The notes below the pieces were generated by a model that had not been told where the DNA came from, did no database searches, and worked only from the letters and a program-made list of their open reading frames with translations. This document shows, piece after piece, positions 3,525 through 16,009 of a DNA stretch of 24,892 bases. This DNA comes from a virus: the IMG/VR virus record IMGVR_UViG_3300032224_001388, positions 1 through 24,892 of that record; one strand, 5' to 3'. Numbering within the stretch: position 1 is the stretch's first letter; each line of letters begins with the position of its first letter. The position numbers and the translations under genes are program-made.

Positions 3525-5534
3525 TTAAAACGGAAATACATCTCGTATTTCGTATAAAGTTTGTTTTTGTTCAATCCTTTGCGCAAATTTTGATTTGCTT
3601 GAGGCAATTAACGTGTAACCACTTGCCATCGTCGCATCAAATTTAGTTGTTTTATTAATATCAAACATCAACCAATCCTTTAAAAGATTTATAAAAATTA
3701 CTTTATGTACATTGTCTGTTACATAAGCTTCAATCTCTTCAGCTATTTGCTGATGTGTTTTAACCGTAGCCGATATCCCATATTTATTGGCACCTGGCAT
3801 CTTTGTTAAAAACCTATCATAACCCCTATATTCAAAGTATTTAATTAATCCTACTTTGTTATCTTCTGGAAGTATTTTACATCCAAAGAAATGAGCAAGC
3901 TTAATTATATCTTCATAAAATATTTCCGCTTTTTCTGGGCGATTTAAATATTCTACTAAAAAAGTTTCACTCAATTCATCCATGGCATCAAACTTACGAT
4001 AAACATAAGCCGCCCCATCAGATCTATTTGTTCCAGTTGTAATACTATGATCAAAAGGATCAGATCCAATTGCATATTTCCTATCATTATCCGGTTCCTT
4101 TTTACTTCCGTATTGCTTTACTTGGTTGTAAAAATCTGTGTCAAAAGGATTAACTTTTTTGTGAACAAGAAATTTCCCATTAGATGTTTCTTTAAAAACA
4201 ACCCTTGAATCTCGTTCTCCCTTTTCCCACATGAATTCACCTTGCAAATATAATTCTTTTTTATCAATCCATGATATACTTTCTATTTGTCTATTTAAAG
4301 ACATCGCATCAAATAAGCAACTCTCTGCTTCGCTAAAAAATGCTTCCTCAATAGTAAATGGATTTTTTCGTATATAAGATGCTAGTGCTCTATGATCCGA
4401 CTCAAGAGCCTCCCTTGCATTTATGTAATATTCTTTTGCCTTCTCTTCGTCACCATATCCAAACTTATCATAGAACAACGTCTTATAGGCAGGCATAAAG
4501 TATTGGTACAATCCAGACATCGTTCTTCCATTGCCATCCCTGACAGATTGGTTTGATGCTTGCCATAAATTCTTAAATGACTCGCCACCGTCTTCCATTT
4601 CCTCAACAGTTGTGGTATAGAGAGCCTTGCCAATTATTATTTCTTCTTGTTGCAAACAGAATTGAACAACCTGGTGTCTATCGTATACGTTTACATTCTT
4701 TGTTTTACCCGCTTCATCAGCAAGGTATCTATGTAACTTTGTCCCATCATAAGCAAACTTGTCAGCAGATTTAAATGTAATCATTGACTCTAACTCAACC
4801 TTTTTTTCAAAATCAAAATCTGCAGCACCCCTTTTATTTGTTTTAAAGAAACGAAGTTCCCCCTTAGGTGTCATTCCTTTTTCAGTATCGTATATTGGCA
4901 CAAAGAAATCAGGTAAATATTTAAACGGCATTACAACTCCCTTGGCAAATACGTTATCTCTTGCATCATCAAAAGTCTTACTTTGAATACCTGCATTCTT
5001 ATTCTTACTTCTAGACGTTAACTCAAACAAGAAAGCTCCCGCCCTCATTGTCTTCCCTTGGCGACGCTTGGTTACCTCAATCATCCCTAAGCAATTAGGA
5101 TCTTGCATACAGTACTCTAAGAAATAAAAGAAATGCAAATCAGTCATCCTAAAGTCAGGATACCCTACATCAATCTTCCAGTGAACCAAATAAAAATAAT
5201 GTAACCCAGTAACATAAGTTCCTTTGCCATTATTCATAAACCAAAATCCATTAAGCCTCCTGTCCCATTCTTGGTTACGATATGATTGTAATTCAGGATT
5301 GTAGTAATCGGGATTAGATTTTTGTGCCAAGATTTCTTTCTTACGCTTAAGCTCGTAATCTGCTGGCGGGAGAGGACGCTCCCAGTATTGGTATGCAGGT
5401 TTTGCGGAACGTTGAATAATATCCCTAGTCTCCCATTCGTTAGTTACAATATTCCAAACAACTCCATTAGGAGGAAGATTAACATTTATGCCATTAATCT
5501 CAATCTCCCTATTTCTTTTATGTTTACGATACAT
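3525..5534 (-). CDS. terL: Terminase large subunit (packaging ATPase and nuclease)
   Basis: The 669-residue product pumps DNA into the prohead through the portal and cuts the concatemer. The ATPase domain shows a Walker A-like loop, TKRRQGKT (residues ~155-162), a Walker B strand ending in YLADE (~270-274), and a probable coupling motif, YTTTVEE (~306-312). The C-terminal RNase H-like nuclease shows acidic residues in the expected order: IGSDPFD (~489-495), ILPEDNK (~554-560) and FDATMASGY (~632-640). The first ~130 residues form an aromatic-rich extension (HYFYLVHWKIDVGYPDFRM) of the kind seen in large Bacteroidota phage terminases. It starts one base after the upstream 186-aa gene and ends two bases before the portal gene. 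Confidence 0.92.
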   Translation of the reverse strand: MYRKHKRNREIEINGINVNLPPNGVVWNIVTNEWETRDIIQRSAKPAYQYWERPLPPADYELKRKKEILAQKSNPDYYNPELQSYRNQEWDRRLNGFWFMNNGKGTYVTGLHYFYLVHWKIDVGYPDFRMTDLHFFYFLEYCMQDPNCLGMIEVTKRRQGKTMRAGAFLFELTSRSKNKNAGIQSKTFDDARDNVFAKGVVMPFKYLPDFFVPIYDTEKGMTPKGELRFFKTNKRGAADFDFEKKVELESMITFKSADKFAYDGTKLHRYLADEAGKTKNVNVYDRHQVVQFCLQQEEIIIGKALYTTTVEEMEDGGESFKNLWQASNQSVRDGNGRTMSGLYQYFMPAYKTLFYDKFGYGDEEKAKEYYINAREALESDHRALASYIRKNPFTIEEAFFSEAESCLFDAMSLNRQIESISWIDKKELYLQGEFMWEKGERDSRVVFKETSNGKFLVHKKVNPFDTDFYNQVKQYGSKKEPDNDRKYAIGSDPFDHSITTGTNRSDGAAYVYRKFDAMDELSETFLVEYLNRPEKAEIFYEDIIKLAHFFGCKILPEDNKVGLIKYFEYRGYDRFLTKMPGANKYGISATVKTHQQIAEEIEAYVTDNVHKVIFINLLKDWLMFDINKTTKFDATMASGYTLIASSKSKFAQRIEQKQTLYEIRDVFPF

Positions 5535-6247: not shown

Positions 6248-6363
6248 GGTGAGATCTAGAGGGAGGGTATAGTGAGATCTAGAGGGAGGGTATGCCTAAA
6301 TCTCACTAGGGGGTATAGTGAGTTCTCACTAGGGGGTATGCCTAAATCTCACTAGGGGGGTAC
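6248..6363. repeat. Iteron array I: five 23-bp direct repeats
   Basis: Five contiguous units start at 6248, 6271, 6294, 6317 and 6340, a period of exactly 23 bp. Units 1 and 2 differ only in the first base; units 3 and 5 are near identical. Unit 4 (6317-6339) carries a dyad, AGTGAG-TT-CTCACT, followed by a G-rich box, AGGGGGTAT. The other units keep one half of the dyad plus the G-rich box. The same motif occurs in inverse orientation at 14161-14251 inside the initiator gene, so I read this as a binding array for that initiator: an origin, or an operator over the late side. The last unit overlaps the 3' end of the co-chaperonin gene and encodes its final residues, GYPPSEI. Confidence 0.85.
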
Positions 6364-7013
6364 CCCATTATTTTACCTAAAATATCCTCTTGGCGTACCG
6401 TGTAGTAGTCTTTTCCTTCAATCTTATTTTTGAAGTGTGCATTTTTTGCAAGAATAATTTCATCATTTTGTTTTACCTCAAGTTCATTTTCTCCAATAAA
6501 TGGTTTTCCAATAAATTTTAATTTTGCAACCCTAATTGATGAAGTTTTATGCAAACTCATTACAATTCCAGAAGCACTTACTGTTGCATTTATTTTTTTC
6601 GAAAGTACCTCCACCTGATTATATTCATTCTCCTGCTCAACCACTTCTTCGCAAAGTGTCCATGCGCCAACAGGTATAATACGACTATTCCTAACAGCAC
6701 AAAAAATCCAATAATAAGGTACTTTATAATAGTTCCCATAAATGCAATTTGTTTCATTGTTTGTTACTAAGTAATGAAAATAAATCTTATCCCCAACTCT
6801 TACTTCTTTCTCAATTTCAAATCCGTTCTCGTTTATGCATTTTCCTTCAGGCACCGCAATGACAGTACCATATATTTTAGCATGATGTGTGGGGTTGAAT
6901 AATGGATCAATATGAAGTTTCATACTACCATATTCTATAGTGTCTTCTAACGCAGAATCTACCCTAACTATGACAGTGTTTACGGGTGATTGCTTAAGCT
7001 CGTATGTAAGCAT
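6342..7013 (-). CDS. GroES-like co-chaperonin, probably two Cpn10 domains (223 aa)
   Basis: The sequence reads as two copies of the GroES (Cpn10) pattern. The first half has YGTVIAVPEG (~48-57), VRVGDKIYFHYLV (~71-83) and YYKVPYYWIFCAV (~95-107). The second half has VAKLKFIGKP (~162-171), VKQNDEIILAK (~180-190) and a GroES-type ending, GKDYYTVRQEDILGKI (~200-215). Bacterial GroES has about 95 residues, so 223 fits a tandem form. Phage co-chaperonins such as T4 gp31 work with host GroEL to fold the capsid protein, which suits a gene beside the head operon. It has its own promoter (7040-7070). Its last codons lie inside an iteron. Identification is by pattern only and could be wrong for the first half. 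Confidence 0.55.
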   Translation of the reverse strand: MLTYELKQSPVNTVIVRVDSALEDTIEYGSMKLHIDPLFNPTHHAKIYGTVIAVPEGKCINENGFEIEKEVRVGDKIYFHYLVTNNETNCIYGNYYKVPYYWIFCAVRNSRIIPVGAWTLCEEVVEQENEYNQVEVLSKKINATVSASGIVMSLHKTSSIRVAKLKFIGKPFIGENELEVKQNDEIILAKNAHFKNKIEGKDYYTVRQEDILGKIMGYPPSEI

Positions 7014-7595: not shown

Positions 7596-7630
7596 TTTTT
7601 GATATAAACCCGTTTTTACCTTGTTTCGGA
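7596..7630 (+). promoter_or_regulatory. Possible weak promoter of the first rightward operon
   Basis: TACCTTGT (7617-7624) matches TAnnTTTG at the TA and the following two T, but the spacing from the upstream TTTTTG (7596-7601) is only about 15 bases instead of 19. The flanking direct repeat at 7560-7590 and the lack of any better match before the gene at 7661 make it the best candidate. Confidence 0.3.
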
Positions 7631-7660
7631 ATATCATTTAAACAAAAAAATATCTTAATT

Positions 7661-7975
7661 ATGAAAAAATTACCTAAATCAATCGAGACGCGGATTAACT
7701 TAATCAATTCAATGATTCCGCAAATTTCTAACCTGGACGAAATTCCATTTACTTATAACGGTGGGACCTGGCCCTATTACGTCGAAATTCAGCCTATAGA
7801 AATTAAAGGTTTGAAAGTTATCATTAAAGCTAAGGACCTAAAAAGTAAAAATAATTATATTAACGCTGAAAAATATAATGTAAATAATACCGATTATTTC
7901 GCAGATAACGGTTTGAGCGGGCTTAGTTATGATTTGTCGGTAATTCTCAAAGCATTTAAAACAGCCTTAAAATAA
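7661..7975 (+). CDS. Hypothetical protein, first gene of the rightward operon (104 aa)
   Basis: The ATG at 7661 is preceded by an A-rich leader (AAACAAAAAAATATC). The product is mixed alpha/beta with short strands such as YYVEIQPIEIKGLKVIIKAK (~45-64), and ends in a helix, SYDLSVILKAFKTALK. No family is recognised. The sequence carries CCTGG and GGACC words, like the leader before it and the genes up to 9436. Its stop overlaps the start of the next small gene (TAATG), indicating one transcript and coupled translation. Confidence 0.75.
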   Translation: MKKLPKSIETRINLINSMIPQISNLDEIPFTYNGGTWPYYVEIQPIEIKGLKVIIKAKDLKSKNNYINAEKYNVNNTDYFADNGLSGLSYDLSVILKAFKTALK

Positions 7976-8290: not shown

Positions 8291-9037
8291 ATGAAAACTA
8301 TCATAGCACCAAACGGAAACCAATTACAAATTTCAAATAATCTTTTGAGCAAAGGAGACACAAACGCGAAACTGATTAAAAACTTTTTAGAATCGCATAT
8401 TTTATACCTTAACCCCTGGAAACAAAATTCACTAGGAATTAATCTTTGTGCCGGGGCTTCCGATAATTGTATTCAAGTATGTATTTATACTACCGGACGC
8501 GGAGTAATGGCACCCGTCCAGGAAGGAAGGACGCGTAGGACGGAACTTTACATACAGCATAGAAATTACTTTTTAAACATGCTATTAAATGAGCTTACAA
8601 AACTCAACAAAAAAGCTTTAAGAGAAGGTAAACAAATCGCAGTTAGGTTAAACGGAACGTCGGACCTGGATTTTATAGCTATCCTTAAAAACCGTTTTAA
8701 CATTGATATCCTGGACGCGTTTCCTGGACTTGAATTTTACGATTATACAAAGATTCTAGGTAAGGTAAAAAAATACGCGGGGACCAGGTACAAATTAACT
8801 TTTTCGCGTAGTGAAACAAACGAATCGGAATGTATTGAAGCTTTAAGCCTGGGCGCTCCCGTTTCCGTAGTTTTCGACGACAAAAAGCCCATGCCTAGTA
8901 TTTATTTAGGGGCTAAGGTTATTGACGGGGACCTTGCCGATGACATTATGTTAACTGCTGAACCTGGAACGATTATAGGCTTAAAAGCTAAAGGTAAGGC
9001 GCGCAAAGATAAAACTAGCGGATTCGTAGTAATTTAA
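8291..9037 (+). CDS. GP88-family protein (248 aa)
   Basis: The features match the phage/mobile-element family called gene product 88, first described from mycobacteriophages. They are a Cys cluster, NLCAGASDNCIQVC (C53, C60, C64), then RLNGTSDLD (~119-127), FYDYTKI (~149-155), LTFSRSETN (~169-177) and a C-terminal Asp/Gly-rich part. The biochemical role of the family is not established as far as I know; conserved Cys and polar motifs suggest a metal-binding or catalytic site. An A-run (AAACAAAAAAAAATC) precedes the ATG at 8291. The gene is unusually rich in CCTGG/CCAGG and GGACC, and is followed by a strong hairpin. Confidence 0.75.
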   Translation: MKTIIAPNGNQLQISNNLLSKGDTNAKLIKNFLESHILYLNPWKQNSLGINLCAGASDNCIQVCIYTTGRGVMAPVQEGRTRRTELYIQHRNYFLNMLLNELTKLNKKALREGKQIAVRLNGTSDLDFIAILKNRFNIDILDAFPGLEFYDYTKILGKVKKYAGTRYKLTFSRSETNESECIEALSLGAPVSVVFDDKKPMPSIYLGAKVIDGDLADDIMLTAEPGTIIGLKAKGKARKDKTSGFVVI

Positions 9038-13298: not shown

Positions 13299-13586
13299 AT
13301 GGAAAGAAGAATTGAGTCGACTGTTATTTCTCGTCATGGAAATCTTATTAATATTTATGCAGTAGAAAATTCTCTTGTTAGGAAAGAAATGCTTAAGCCC
13401 TATAGCTCTTATGAAATTGAATATAGATTTGGGGCAAACGGTTCAGATACTTTCATCGGAGAATACATTGATTGTACTCCCGAAATGAGAAGTCTAATCT
13501 TTACTCATCCAACGAAAGGGGAAGGTAGAAGAATTATTGTACCAACAAATAATATTATTAAATTACGTCATTTGTTTGATAAATAA
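13299..13586 (+). CDS. Hypothetical protein (95 aa)
   Basis: A beta-rich small protein with a basic start, MERRIESTVISRHGN, then YSSYEIEYRFGANGSDTFIG and a Lys/Arg-containing C-terminal half (TKGEGRRIIVPTNNIIKLRH). It is less acidic than the genes before it and may bind nucleic acid, but no known fold can be named. It is the last gene before the replication operon. The promoter of the structured RNA (13571-13601) overlaps its final codons. Confidence 0.65.
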   Translation: MERRIESTVISRHGNLINIYAVENSLVRKEMLKPYSSYEIEYRFGANGSDTFIGEYIDCTPEMRSLIFTHPTKGEGRRIIVPTNNIIKLRHLFDK

Positions 13587-13601
13587 TTTGAGTTATATTT
13601 G
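13571..13601 (+). promoter_or_regulatory. Strong Bacteroidota-type promoter before the replication operon
   Basis: TTTG (13571-13574), exactly 19 bases, then TATATTTG (13594-13601) is a full match to TTTG-N19-TAnnTTTG. Transcription would start near 13607-13608, right at the base of the first stem of the RNA described next. The promoter lies partly inside the 3' end of the upstream gene. Confidence 0.75.
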
Positions 13602-13607
13602 TGAGTA

Positions 13608-13697
13608 GTATTTTGAATTGTATTGAGGGATGCGATTCAAAGTATAGGCTAAAATCCTATCGCCCAAGTTTCTTCCCTCAAGGACTTGGGCATTTTT
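13608..13697 (+). ncRNA. Structured ~90-nt RNA or attenuator leader with a possible loop-loop contact
   Basis: Between a full promoter and a terminator the RNA can form three hairpins. Hairpin 1 pairs TTTGAAT (13612-13618) with ATTCAAA (13635-13641) and can extend inward by G-U pairs to a GAGG loop. Hairpin 2 is ATAGG (13644-13648) with CCTAT (13656-13660) and loop CTAAAAT. Hairpin 3 is the terminator. TTGAGGGA in hairpin 1 (13623-13630) is exactly complementary to TCCCTCAA in the terminator loop (13674-13681), so a kissing or pseudoknot contact is possible. It ends eight bases before the next ATG. It is either a free small RNA or a leader controlling read-through into the initiator and helicase genes. 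It fits no riboswitch class I know. Confidence 0.65.
13662..13697 (+). terminator. Intrinsic terminator ahead of the replication operon
   Basis: GCCCAAGT (13662-13669) pairs perfectly with ACTTGGGC (13684-13691) around a 14-base loop, followed by ATTTTTA. The five-base U run is short, so some read-through into the gene at 13705 is expected. The loop contains the sequence that can pair with hairpin 1 of the upstream RNA, offering a way to control termination. Confidence 0.75.
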
Positions 13698-13704
13698 ATC
13701 TTCA

Positions 13705-13899
13705 ATGGATCTAGAATTAATGGCATTTATGGCGGTAGTTAAAGTTAAGCTGATTCATACTCAAATGGACCTGGCTGACTATCAAAAAGCATTATCATAT
13801 GCAACCCCCGAAATGGAAGCCTTTGATATTTTATTAAAAAATGCAGAAGAATTAGTCAAAGAAATTCAGTTTTACGAAAATAAATTAAAAGAAATATGA
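13705..13899 (+). CDS. Small helical protein before the initiator (64 aa)
   Basis: The sequence is wholly helical (MDLADYQKALSYATPEMEAF, then ILLKNAEELVKEIQFYENKL). The ATG at 13705 lies eight bases after the terminator; an ATG at 13720 is an alternative. Its stop overlaps the initiator's start in ATGA (13896-13899), so it should be translated in step with it. A helper or regulator of initiation is possible from position only. Confidence 0.65.
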   Translation: MDLELMAFMAVVKVKLIHTQMDLADYQKALSYATPEMEAFDILLKNAEELVKEIQFYENKLKEI

Positions 13900-14585
13900 G
13901 TTGGTTTGCGGTGATTTCTTCGGAGATATTGGTGCGAAAAGATTTGTCTGCTAATGAGAAATTATTGGTTGGTTTAATACAAAGTTTATCCCATCAAAAG
14001 GGGCATTGCTTTGCAAGTAATTCTTATATGGCTGAATGTATTGGAATTTCAGCAAGTTCGGTTAGACAATACCTAAAATCTTTAGAAGATAAGGATATTA
14101 TTACTAGGGATTTAAAGAAAAAAGAATCTGGAGAGGTTGAAATAAGGGAAATCAAGTTGACTACCCCTCTGCCGAGAACTCACCATACCCCTAGTGAGAA
14201 CTCACTACACCCTCTGCCTAATTCTCACCCCCCCTCTGCCGAGAACTCACTACATAATAAGAGAGATAATAATAAAGAGAATAAAAAAGAAGAAATAGTT
14301 AATAATCGATTTGAGGAATTTTGGGAATTGTATGGGAAGAAGGTAGGGAAGGAAAAAGCAAAGCTTAGTTGGATTAAACTAAAAGAAAAAGAAAAAGATG
14401 ATTGTCTATTGGCGATCCCGAAGTATACCAAAGCTAGACCCGATATAATTTATCGAAAGGACCCTGAGCGTTACTTGAAAAATAGGGTTTGGGAAGATGA
14501 TATTGTAGGTTCCAATCTAAATGTTAAATCAGAACCAATTGATCAAAAACAATTTGAATTAATCATACCAGACAAATGGCTTTAA
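13896..14585 (+). CDS. Replication initiator, lambda-O-like layout (229 aa)
   Basis: The N-terminal domain (~8-75) is a winged helix-turn-helix of the phage/plasmid initiator kind: LSANEKLLVGLIQSLSHQKG, then SNSYMAECIGISASSVRQYL and KSLEDKDIITR. Residues ~89-130 are a Pro/His/Ser then Asn/Lys/Glu linker whose DNA holds four iterons and an AT-rich tract. The C-terminal domain (~139-200) has FEEFWELYGKKVGKEKAKLS, the pattern of phage replication proteins thought to contact the helicase. The order DNA-binding domain, origin-encoding linker, helicase-contact domain is that of lambda O. The helicase gene follows at once (10-base overlap). The protein would bind the iterons and load the helicase. 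Confidence 0.85.
   Translation: MSWFAVISSEILVRKDLSANEKLLVGLIQSLSHQKGHCFASNSYMAECIGISASSVRQYLKSLEDKDIITRDLKKKESGEVEIREIKLTTPLPRTHHTPSENSLHPLPNSHPPSAENSLHNKRDNNKENKKEEIVNNRFEEFWELYGKKVGKEKAKLSWIKLKEKEKDDCLLAIPKYTKARPDIIYRKDPERYLKNRVWEDDIVGSNLNVKSEPIDQKQFELIIPDKWL
14161..14251. repeat. Iteron array II inside the initiator gene: four 22-23-bp repeats
   Basis: Four units end at 14184, 14206, 14229 and 14251. Each has a C-rich box (TACCCCT, CACCCTCTGCC) followed by AGAACTCAC or a close variant. The second unit has the full dyad AGTGAG-AA-CTCACT (14193-14206). Units 1, 2 and 4 share GAGAACTCAC. Read on the opposite strand this is the motif of array I (6248-6363). The DNA encodes the Pro/His/Ser linker of the initiator. 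Four iterons in the initiator gene followed by an AT-rich tract is the arrangement of the lambda origin, so I call this the origin with good confidence. Confidence 0.85.
14252..14306. other. AT/purine-rich tract beside iteron array II (probable DNA unwinding element)
   Basis: After the last iteron the plus strand contains only A, T and G from 14254 to 14306, mostly A with scattered G (AATAAGAGAGATAATAATAA). The strand asymmetry and low melting energy match the tract beside the lambda iterons. The start, ACATAATAA, is the same as that leaving array I on the minus strand. It encodes the Asn/Lys/Glu part of the initiator linker. Confidence 0.65.
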
Positions 14586-16009
14586 ATAAAAAAATAGTAA
14601 TTGAAGATTTTTTTCTAGAGGAGGATGTTATTGCATACCTACTAGAGAATTCTCACATGGTTCAAGATGCTTCTAAAATTATAACTGATAACTGCTTCGT
14701 AGACTTGTTATTTAAGGCGTCATTTAACGCGATGGTTGAATTATCTATTGACAATAAGGTATTTAATCGTTACGATGTTTTTAGACTGCTTAAATCAAAG
14801 AATTTGTCTATAGGTGTAGATCCCTCGCATTTGCTAAGTTTGTTACCTAAGGGCAAAGTAGAGCTACCTAAAGTTTGCGGTGAGCTAAAAGAATTAGAAG
14901 TTAAGAGGATTGCTAATGACTTATCAATCTCTATTCAACAAAGTCTAGCTAATGGCGACGACATAACAAAACTTTCGAGCGTAGTAGAACTAGGGTTGGC
15001 GGAAATTCACAATGGTCCGCTCTCAACTGAAATATATTCCCTAAACAATGTATATGAATCCGTGATGAATAAAATGGAAGCTACTGCTGGGGTGCTTAAA
15101 TTTTCGGGCGTTGACACTGGTTCGCGTAAACTTAATTACGTCTTAGGGGGTTGGCAACCAGGAGTAACAATCATTGCGGCTCGCCCTGGTATGGGGAAGA
15201 CTATTGCCGGTTTAGAGCATGCAAAATCTGCATCAAAGACGGGGGTTAAAGTATTATTTCTTTCGTTAGAGATGCCTAAAGAATCATTAGTTTATAGATA
15301 TATATCTAGTGAATTTGAGGATTATAAGTATTCTGATTTAAAAGCAAATCGTATTAGCAAAGAAGATGTAACTAAGATTAGGAATTCTAATGCTAGGGTC
15401 CTCAAGCAATTACCTATTTCGTTTTACGATTCTGATAATAGGGATGTCAATTATTTAAATTTGCTATTAATTAAGGAGTGCAGGAAAAATGGCATAGGAC
15501 TAATAGTTATTGACTATCTGCAGTTAATACGCGACAATCAAATCAAAGATCAAAGTGACTTCGCCCAGGTATCATCCGTATCAAATAAAATTCAGAAGCT
15601 TACTCGCAAGTTAGGTATTCCAATTGTAGCGTTATCTCAGTTATCCCGGAGCGTTGAATCCAGGGCTAATAAGCACCCAATGTTATCCGATTTAAGAAGC
15701 AGTGGCAATATTGAGCAAGATGCAATTGTAGTTATTCTATTATACCGAGACGACTATTATAAATACGTTGAAGCTAAAGAATCAAATCAACCCGTAGCTC
15801 AGATGGATAATAAACTATTGTACATCGTTGCAAAGAATAGAGACGGAGAGGTTGGCGATGTTAACAGAATTGTTGACGTTAAAACAAATAGAATTGCCGA
15901 CGAAGAATCAGAATTGTTTGGATTCAAGGAACCCCAGGTAGCATTTAAAGATTCAGCAATCAATAAGATTCAACCTAATTTTGACGATATAACAATTAAA
16001 CCATTTTAA
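14576..16009 (+). CDS. dnaB: Replicative DNA helicase, DnaB type (477 aa)
   Basis: The RecA-like motor domain (~180-445) carries Walker A ARPGMGKT (~202-209) and Walker B IVIDYLQL (~310-317). It also has the LSQLSRSVE motif (~353-361), SDLRSSGNIEQDA (~371-383, arginine finger region) and AKNRDGEVG (~419-427). The first ~150 residues are the helical N-terminal domain. The length is normal for DnaB. The hexamer unwinds DNA at the fork and would be loaded by the initiator encoded just before it. The extreme C-terminus, FDDITIKPF, resembles the acidic-plus-PF tip of single-stranded DNA-binding proteins. The start at 14576 overlaps the initiator stop. No primase domain is fused. Confidence 0.93.
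   Translation: MALNKKIVIEDFFLEEDVIAYLLENSHMVQDASKIITDNCFVDLLFKASFNAMVELSIDNKVFNRYDVFRLLKSKNLSIGVDPSHLLSLLPKGKVELPKVCGELKELEVKRIANDLSISIQQSLANGDDITKLSSVVELGLAEIHNGPLSTEIYSLNNVYESVMNKMEATAGVLKFSGVDTGSRKLNYVLGGWQPGVTIIAARPGMGKTIAGLEHAKSASKTGVKVLFLSLEMPKESLVYRYISSEFEDYKYSDLKANRISKEDVTKIRNSNARVLKQLPISFYDSDNRDVNYLNLLLIKECRKNGIGLIVIDYLQLIRDNQIKDQSDFAQVSSVSNKIQKLTRKLGIPIVALSQLSRSVESRANKHPMLSDLRSSGNIEQDAIVVILLYRDDYYKYVEAKESNQPVAQMDNKLLYIVAKNRDGEVGDVNRIVDVKTNRIADEESELFGFKEPQVAFKDSAINKIQPNFDDITIKPF

Follow-up and report, generated by a model that had tools for sequence, protein, structure and literature searches.

An unannotated leader RNA of about 90 nt precedes the replication genes in many phages of Bacteroidota, and sometimes in phages of other hosts. 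This is shown as sequence architecture: a promoter is followed by a 5' hairpin and by a terminator hairpin, and the loops of the two are complementary. The loop letters vary between phages and change together, and the pairing is conserved. The element is real, widely conserved and uncatalogued, and it is located where phage replication is turned on. Our best reading, held with no more than a slight preference, is that this 5' leader of the replication operon is a transcription attenuator, preferably one with replicon-specific feedback.

Promoter and hairpins ahead of the replication operon

The stretch of DNA analyzed (the window) is the IMG/VR virus record IMGVR_UViG_3300032224_001388, 24.9 kb in length; all features described here are on its plus strand. 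The terminase and the portal of the window are distant relatives of their counterparts in Flavobacterium elemoviruses and Cellulophaga phages, so that a flavobacterial host is probable. A conserved ORF of 95 aa (13299-13586), found as the same neighbor in relatives L027 and L028, lies directly upstream of the element. The promoter read in the window sequence is of the Bacteroidota -33/-7 form, TTTG-N19-TATATTTG, with the -33 element TTTG at 13571-13574 and the -7 element TATATTTG (TAnnTTTG) at 13594-13601; it was missed by a sigma-70 scan. The -33 TTG is conserved at a spacing of 17-22 nt in 35 of 48 relatives, compared with 11% of shuffles. From sequence alone, and without transcript data, the RNA is expected to start at about 13605-13608, at the foot of the first hairpin.

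This hairpin, H1 (13608-13645), has an 8-nt loop and about 13 layers in relatives, and is supported by folding and by the covariation in classes B and C described below. Its loop, TTGAGGGA (13623-13630), is one strand of the loop-loop helix; the opposite strand is the loop TCCCTCAA (13674-13681) of the terminator hairpin T (13662-13691), which was recognized by sequence reading and folding and is followed by a U-tract at 13693-13697. The window T loop UCCCUCAA is the exact complement of the 8-nt H1 loop UUGAGGGA, and complementarity at this place recurs across relatives. Folded alone, positions 13600-13700 gave -34.9 kcal/mol (z = -4.8), and none of 200 shuffles was as low. T was not reported by a simple terminator scan of the window, probably because its stem-loop falls outside the stem and loop limits of that scan. 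The weakest part is the small hairpin H2 (ATAGG..CCTAT, 13644-13660), identified by folding of relatives. In the window it shares bases with the foot of H1 and does not appear in the MFE fold; it is present in the MFE fold of L026 and L038, and is missing in the cultured type of the elemoviruses, phage 11b and the muminviruses. Since this cultured group lacks H2, only the promoter, the two loops (5' and terminator) and the operon next to them are universal.

The first start codon, at 13705, lies 7 nt past the end of the U-tract. It belongs to a 64-aa ORF (13705-13899), identified from the ORF list and by searches, which opens the operon in classes A and B. Family matches identify the next genes as a replication initiator (13896-14585; HTH_36 and PHROG 270, replication initiation protein) and a DnaB-like helicase (14576-16009). 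Inside the initiator gene, at about 14167-14253, there are repeated GAGAACTCAC / CCTCTGCC motifs resembling the origin iterons in lambda O. Elsewhere in the window, at 6342-7013 and 8291-9037, are a GroES-like protein with an N-terminal extension and a GP88-family protein (PF17338).

A preliminary description of this locus had claimed a unit of promoter, structured RNA and terminator in front of the replication operon, with three hairpins, the last being the terminator, and with the operon beginning eight bases after it. The unit is supported by the sequence architecture. The promoter held, as did H1 and T, and H2 was the part that did not appear in the window MFE fold. The spacing held approximately: the gap is 7 nt, the first gene is the 64-aa ORF, and the initiator begins at 13896.

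Conservation of the loop-loop pairing

Relatives were collected with the 64-aa ORF, the initiator and the helicase as queries, which gave about 100 viral contigs, and elements were located with a script that finds a 5' hairpin whose loop complements a terminator loop. On reversed sequences the script returned a few weak false positives in each genome, and in nearly all of these the promoter was imperfect. About 55 distinct element sequences with 18 loop-pair types were parsed, and the element was present before the same operon in most contigs that reach far enough upstream. Three groups share a common architecture: group A, to which the window belongs, has the loop pairs UUGAGGG/CCCUCAA and variants; group B has GUUGCG/CGCAAC, GUUGAG/CUCAAC and GUCGCG/CGCGAC; and group C has the H1 loops GUGAGAG, GUAGGAGU, GUGGUAG, GUGGAAG and GUCAGAG, each with its complement. 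Among cultured carriers, elemoviruses E/F have GUGGAGG, elemoviruses A-D have UGAGAGC, Olleya phage Harreka_1 has GUGGUGG, and Flavobacterium phage 11b has CGGGCAGG. The loop of tooticki and the other muminviruses is GUCGUCG; in Cellulophaga phage phi13:2 the pair CUCUCACAA/UUGUGAGAG was found by eye, with a weak H1.

The same operon lacks the element in L013-L017, and in L018 (4020-4091) and L019 (4031-4102) a promoter and a single hairpin, GACTCCGC..GGCGGGGT, without a U-tract, stand at its place. No convincing element was found in the first 50 kb of phi38:1 or of Gundel_1, in half of MW202828, or in the initiator region of B124-14. A scan of GTDB genomes with the helicase alignment gave one unrelated match only, and no prophages were found thereby; the tyrosine integrase PF00589 was absent from all 33 records tested, many of which are fragments.

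For the 18 loop types, own pairs match over 5-9 nt and swapped pairs average 3.2 nt. The own-pair fits sum to 125 nt; the maximum in 100,000 permutations was 93, and none reached the observed value. Since most of the types had been found by a rule that itself requires complementarity, three further checks were made. Covariation was counted class by class, because a MAFFT alignment of all classes together misaligned class B. In the class C alignment 99.7% of cells are paired, with 68 double-change cells versus 20.5 in shuffles; its loop-loop helix is 100% paired with 3 positions doubly changed, and its H1 has double changes in 9 of 12 pairs (99.4% paired). Class B is 96.2% paired, its loop-loop helix 100%, and 8 of 14 H1 pairs show double changes. 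A covariance model of class C (R1), which pairs the stems only and leaves out the loop-loop helix, detected 28 sites at E < 1e-9, every one of them with complementary loops; this model does not reach classes A and B.

In a pattern scan of viral contigs, only one loop pair and a T-run were specified, and no stem, promoter or gene was required. The scan matched 119 viral stretches, 80 of which were retrieved. An H1 stem of at least 8 pairs was present in 40 of the 59 distinct pattern sites (1.9% in shuffles) and the TAnnTTTG promoter in 37 of them (3.7% in shuffled flanks), and in 74 of 78 sites a start codon lay 2-14 nt past the T-run. Four of the 80 pattern loci (L212, L222, L250 and L263) look like chance matches.

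The loop complementarity claimed in the preliminary description thus held, being exact over 8 nt in the window and kept with other letters in relatives. It had also proposed that compensatory changes in the stems and the loop pair of relatives would support the RNA, and that uncompensated loss of the complementarity would refute it. The former was examined and passed, by the permutations and by the covariation in classes B and C. The latter was seen in a single contig, 3300017774_001985 (L009/L022), where an 8-nt deletion in the T loop leaves 5 bp; this is the only clear loss seen.

Genes behind the element

The next gene in the pattern sites is mostly a replication initiator, drawn from the unrelated families PHROG 2562, 6251/1701, 2514 and 428/270; another next gene is PHROG 19415, of unknown function. 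As the downstream initiators span several unrelated families, we infer that the RNA is tied to the replication function rather than to one gene. A given initiator type is not tied to a loop type, the two being exchanged independently: L089 and L092 have the same initiator type and different loops, and so do L071 and L086. Elemoviruses E/F and A-D, which share one host strain, have the same promoter sequence and differ in both loop and initiator.

Some copies have an HNH or NUMOD4 endonuclease downstream (L045, L046, L186, L209 and tooticki). L046 has two copies with different loop letters, at 1354-1456 and 4955-5045. In the class-B phages L046, L045 (3471-3561) and L186 (3327), a class-C copy precedes a NUMOD/HNH endonuclease, and the endonuclease cassette looks as if it carried its own leader. 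A few copies occur, with a Shine-Dalgarno sequence, in phages that are not Bacteroidota-like; one such phage, L258, has the element before a gene that by eye is YopX-like. In L197, likewise not Bacteroidota-like (minus strand, about 7600-7760), the kissing architecture and a Shine-Dalgarno sequence stand before a BRO-N-like antirepressor gene, recognized by eye, inside a head-gene operon.

Proposed attenuation, rival explanations and known systems

The criterion for a transcription attenuator is met in the sequence, with an intrinsic terminator between the promoter and the first gene and an additional RNA contact; termination itself is inferred. The terminator-to-start gap of 2-14 nt leaves no room for another promoter, and the operon would therefore need read-through, so that an attenuator can be inferred from position alone. 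From its start at the foot of H1, transcription in the window would reach T after about 85 nt, with the first start codon following 7 nt further on; the operon would be expressed only by read-through of T. The contact between the H1 and T loops, of 6-9 bp, would set how often T stops RNA polymerase, and we consider it likely, by inference, that read-through is what this pairing sets. The terminated RNA of about 90 nt would carry both loops, and through them it could engage nascent leaders of that phage in trans by the same pairing. As genome copies and the short RNA accumulate, read-through into the initiator operon would change, providing copy-number or superinfection control. The architecture, the position and the conserved loop-loop pairing are shown; termination at T in vivo, the effect of pairing on termination, its sign and the action in trans are inferred, with no transcript, termination or structure data.

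The preliminary description had left two uses possible, an attenuator or a free small RNA. That a start codon follows at a fixed 2-14 nt, irrespective of which gene it belongs to, favors use as a leader or attenuator, itself an inference from sequence alone; a free RNA acting in trans is inferred only. Contact in trans is favored, without being proved, because the linkers around H2 in L026 are only 0-1 nt, which by a rough geometric inference seems to leave too little reach for the two complete hairpins to kiss in cis while H2 is formed, and because the letters diversify freely with complementarity held, as in plasmid copy-control RNAs. Several points stand against the attenuator reading with feedback. 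The loop-loop pairing and the T stem are not mutually exclusive, so that what the contact does to termination is not evident. Class C phages from a shared sample differ in loop type no more often than expected (few pairs, reckoned by hand). Furthermore, the relatives L013-L019 are without such an element before the same operon, and the muminvirus elements are identical in all 34 records compared.

A purely cis-acting device remains possible, in which the contact of H1 with T would serve as a fixed tertiary element, tuning or timing read-through or shielding the start-codon region, with no role for the free RNA. The leader position and the fixed distance to the start codon agree with it, as do the single element copy per record in class C and the identity of the muminvirus elements; however, a fixed tertiary contact gives no reason for the wide diversification of the loop letters, and the inference from the L026 linkers also speaks against it. 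It is unlikely that the element is a stand-alone small RNA acting in trans on other host or phage targets, with the operon merely lying behind its terminator. The complete promoter-RNA-terminator unit and the short stable structure would suit such an RNA, but the terminator nearly always ends 2-14 nt before a start codon with no promoter fitting between, and the two loops are matched to one another, not to some shared target elsewhere.

Nor do we favor a switch gated by a ligand or protein, either riboswitch-like or a polymerase-binding antitermination element. Cobalamin riboswitches do gate a kiss between an aptamer loop and an expression-platform loop by ligand (PMC10907184), but there is no conserved unpaired core in classes A-D, where variation extends to loops, linkers and stems alike; a protein of phage or host origin that reads only the RNA shape is not excluded. 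Least probable is a DNA-level element (an origin hairpin, primer RNA or single-strand initiation site). It would adjoin the initiator gene, whose repeated GAGAACTCAC motifs could be origin iterons; against it, the promoter and U-tract are conserved in place, and copies of the element that lie away from the initiator precede genes for HNH, NUMOD4 and antirepressor proteins (L045, L046 and L197).

No Rfam 15 family was found on the element, either in the window at gathering thresholds or in representatives of all classes at E up to 5 and 2, and no description of it was found in the open-access literature searched; the earlier statement that it fits no known class thus held. In phage P4, a short leader RNA of the replication operon (CI RNA, seqA-seqC immunity) base-pairs with that leader, so that transcription of the replication genes ends prematurely (PMC4825925). 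The element is likewise a short replication-operon leader RNA, but the P4 CI RNA is processed from a transcript and pairs with separate targets. Gifsy-1 IsrK has the same layout of promoter, short structured RNA, terminator and read-through mRNA, and the long form of this RNA is a trans target of the short form (PMC4825925); IsrK controls orf45-anrP, whereas the element precedes a replication operon. The architecture common to IsrK and P4 SeqA-CI (own promoter, intrinsic terminator, read-through mRNA behind) is met by the element in sequence only, its transcripts being inferred. Neither RNA qualified as a member: the P4 region scanned had no convincing match between a hairpin loop and a terminator loop, only matches with weak flanking stems, and the isrK region, the only part of Gifsy-1 scanned, had no notable complementarity between a 5' loop and a terminator loop (best 6 nt, with a 5-bp stem).

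Plasmid copy-control RNAs (ColE1 RNA I/II, CopA/CopT and pT181 attenuation) control replication by a loop-loop contact of variable letters. Their partner is antisense, from the opposite strand, whereas both loops of the element are on one strand and in one RNA; as no minus-strand element was found in the window, membership among antisense copy-control RNAs is not met. The L5-L13 contact of cobalamin riboswitches, in which the regulatory hairpin loop kisses an upstream loop (PMC10907184), belongs to RNAs with a large conserved ligand core; the element has no conserved unpaired core across classes and is not a riboswitch by this measure. C4 antisense RNA (RF01695; listed in PMC2864571) resembles the element in position, and no covariance-model match to it was obtained in any element searched. 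This phage RNA precedes the gene under its control and shares a transcript with it. We place the element with the phage leader-attenuators as an uncatalogued form, its mechanism being inferred.

On a bolder reading, which is no more than possible, a self-recognizing RNA from one strand defines immunity or incompatibility groups among virulent phages. The short leader RNA would recognize only leaders with its own letters, throttling sister genomes and superinfecting kin, and a swappable leader-initiator module would let phages escape. The loop pair is code-like in that it changes yet stays complementary, as in plasmid incompatibility, without an antisense strand. There is a realistic chance of an RNA-based copy-number or immunity code; the mechanism is plausible and the function inferred. 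The element is also a source of ready-made, mutually specific RNA attenuators for Bacteroidota. As cultured Flavobacterium phages carry it, RNA control of copy number or of the exclusion of relatives, in phages with no integrase gene found, is directly testable. In the elemoviruses, the element has a tRNA-Met gene as its immediate upstream neighbor (L187, 9508-9581; L192, 2365-2438).
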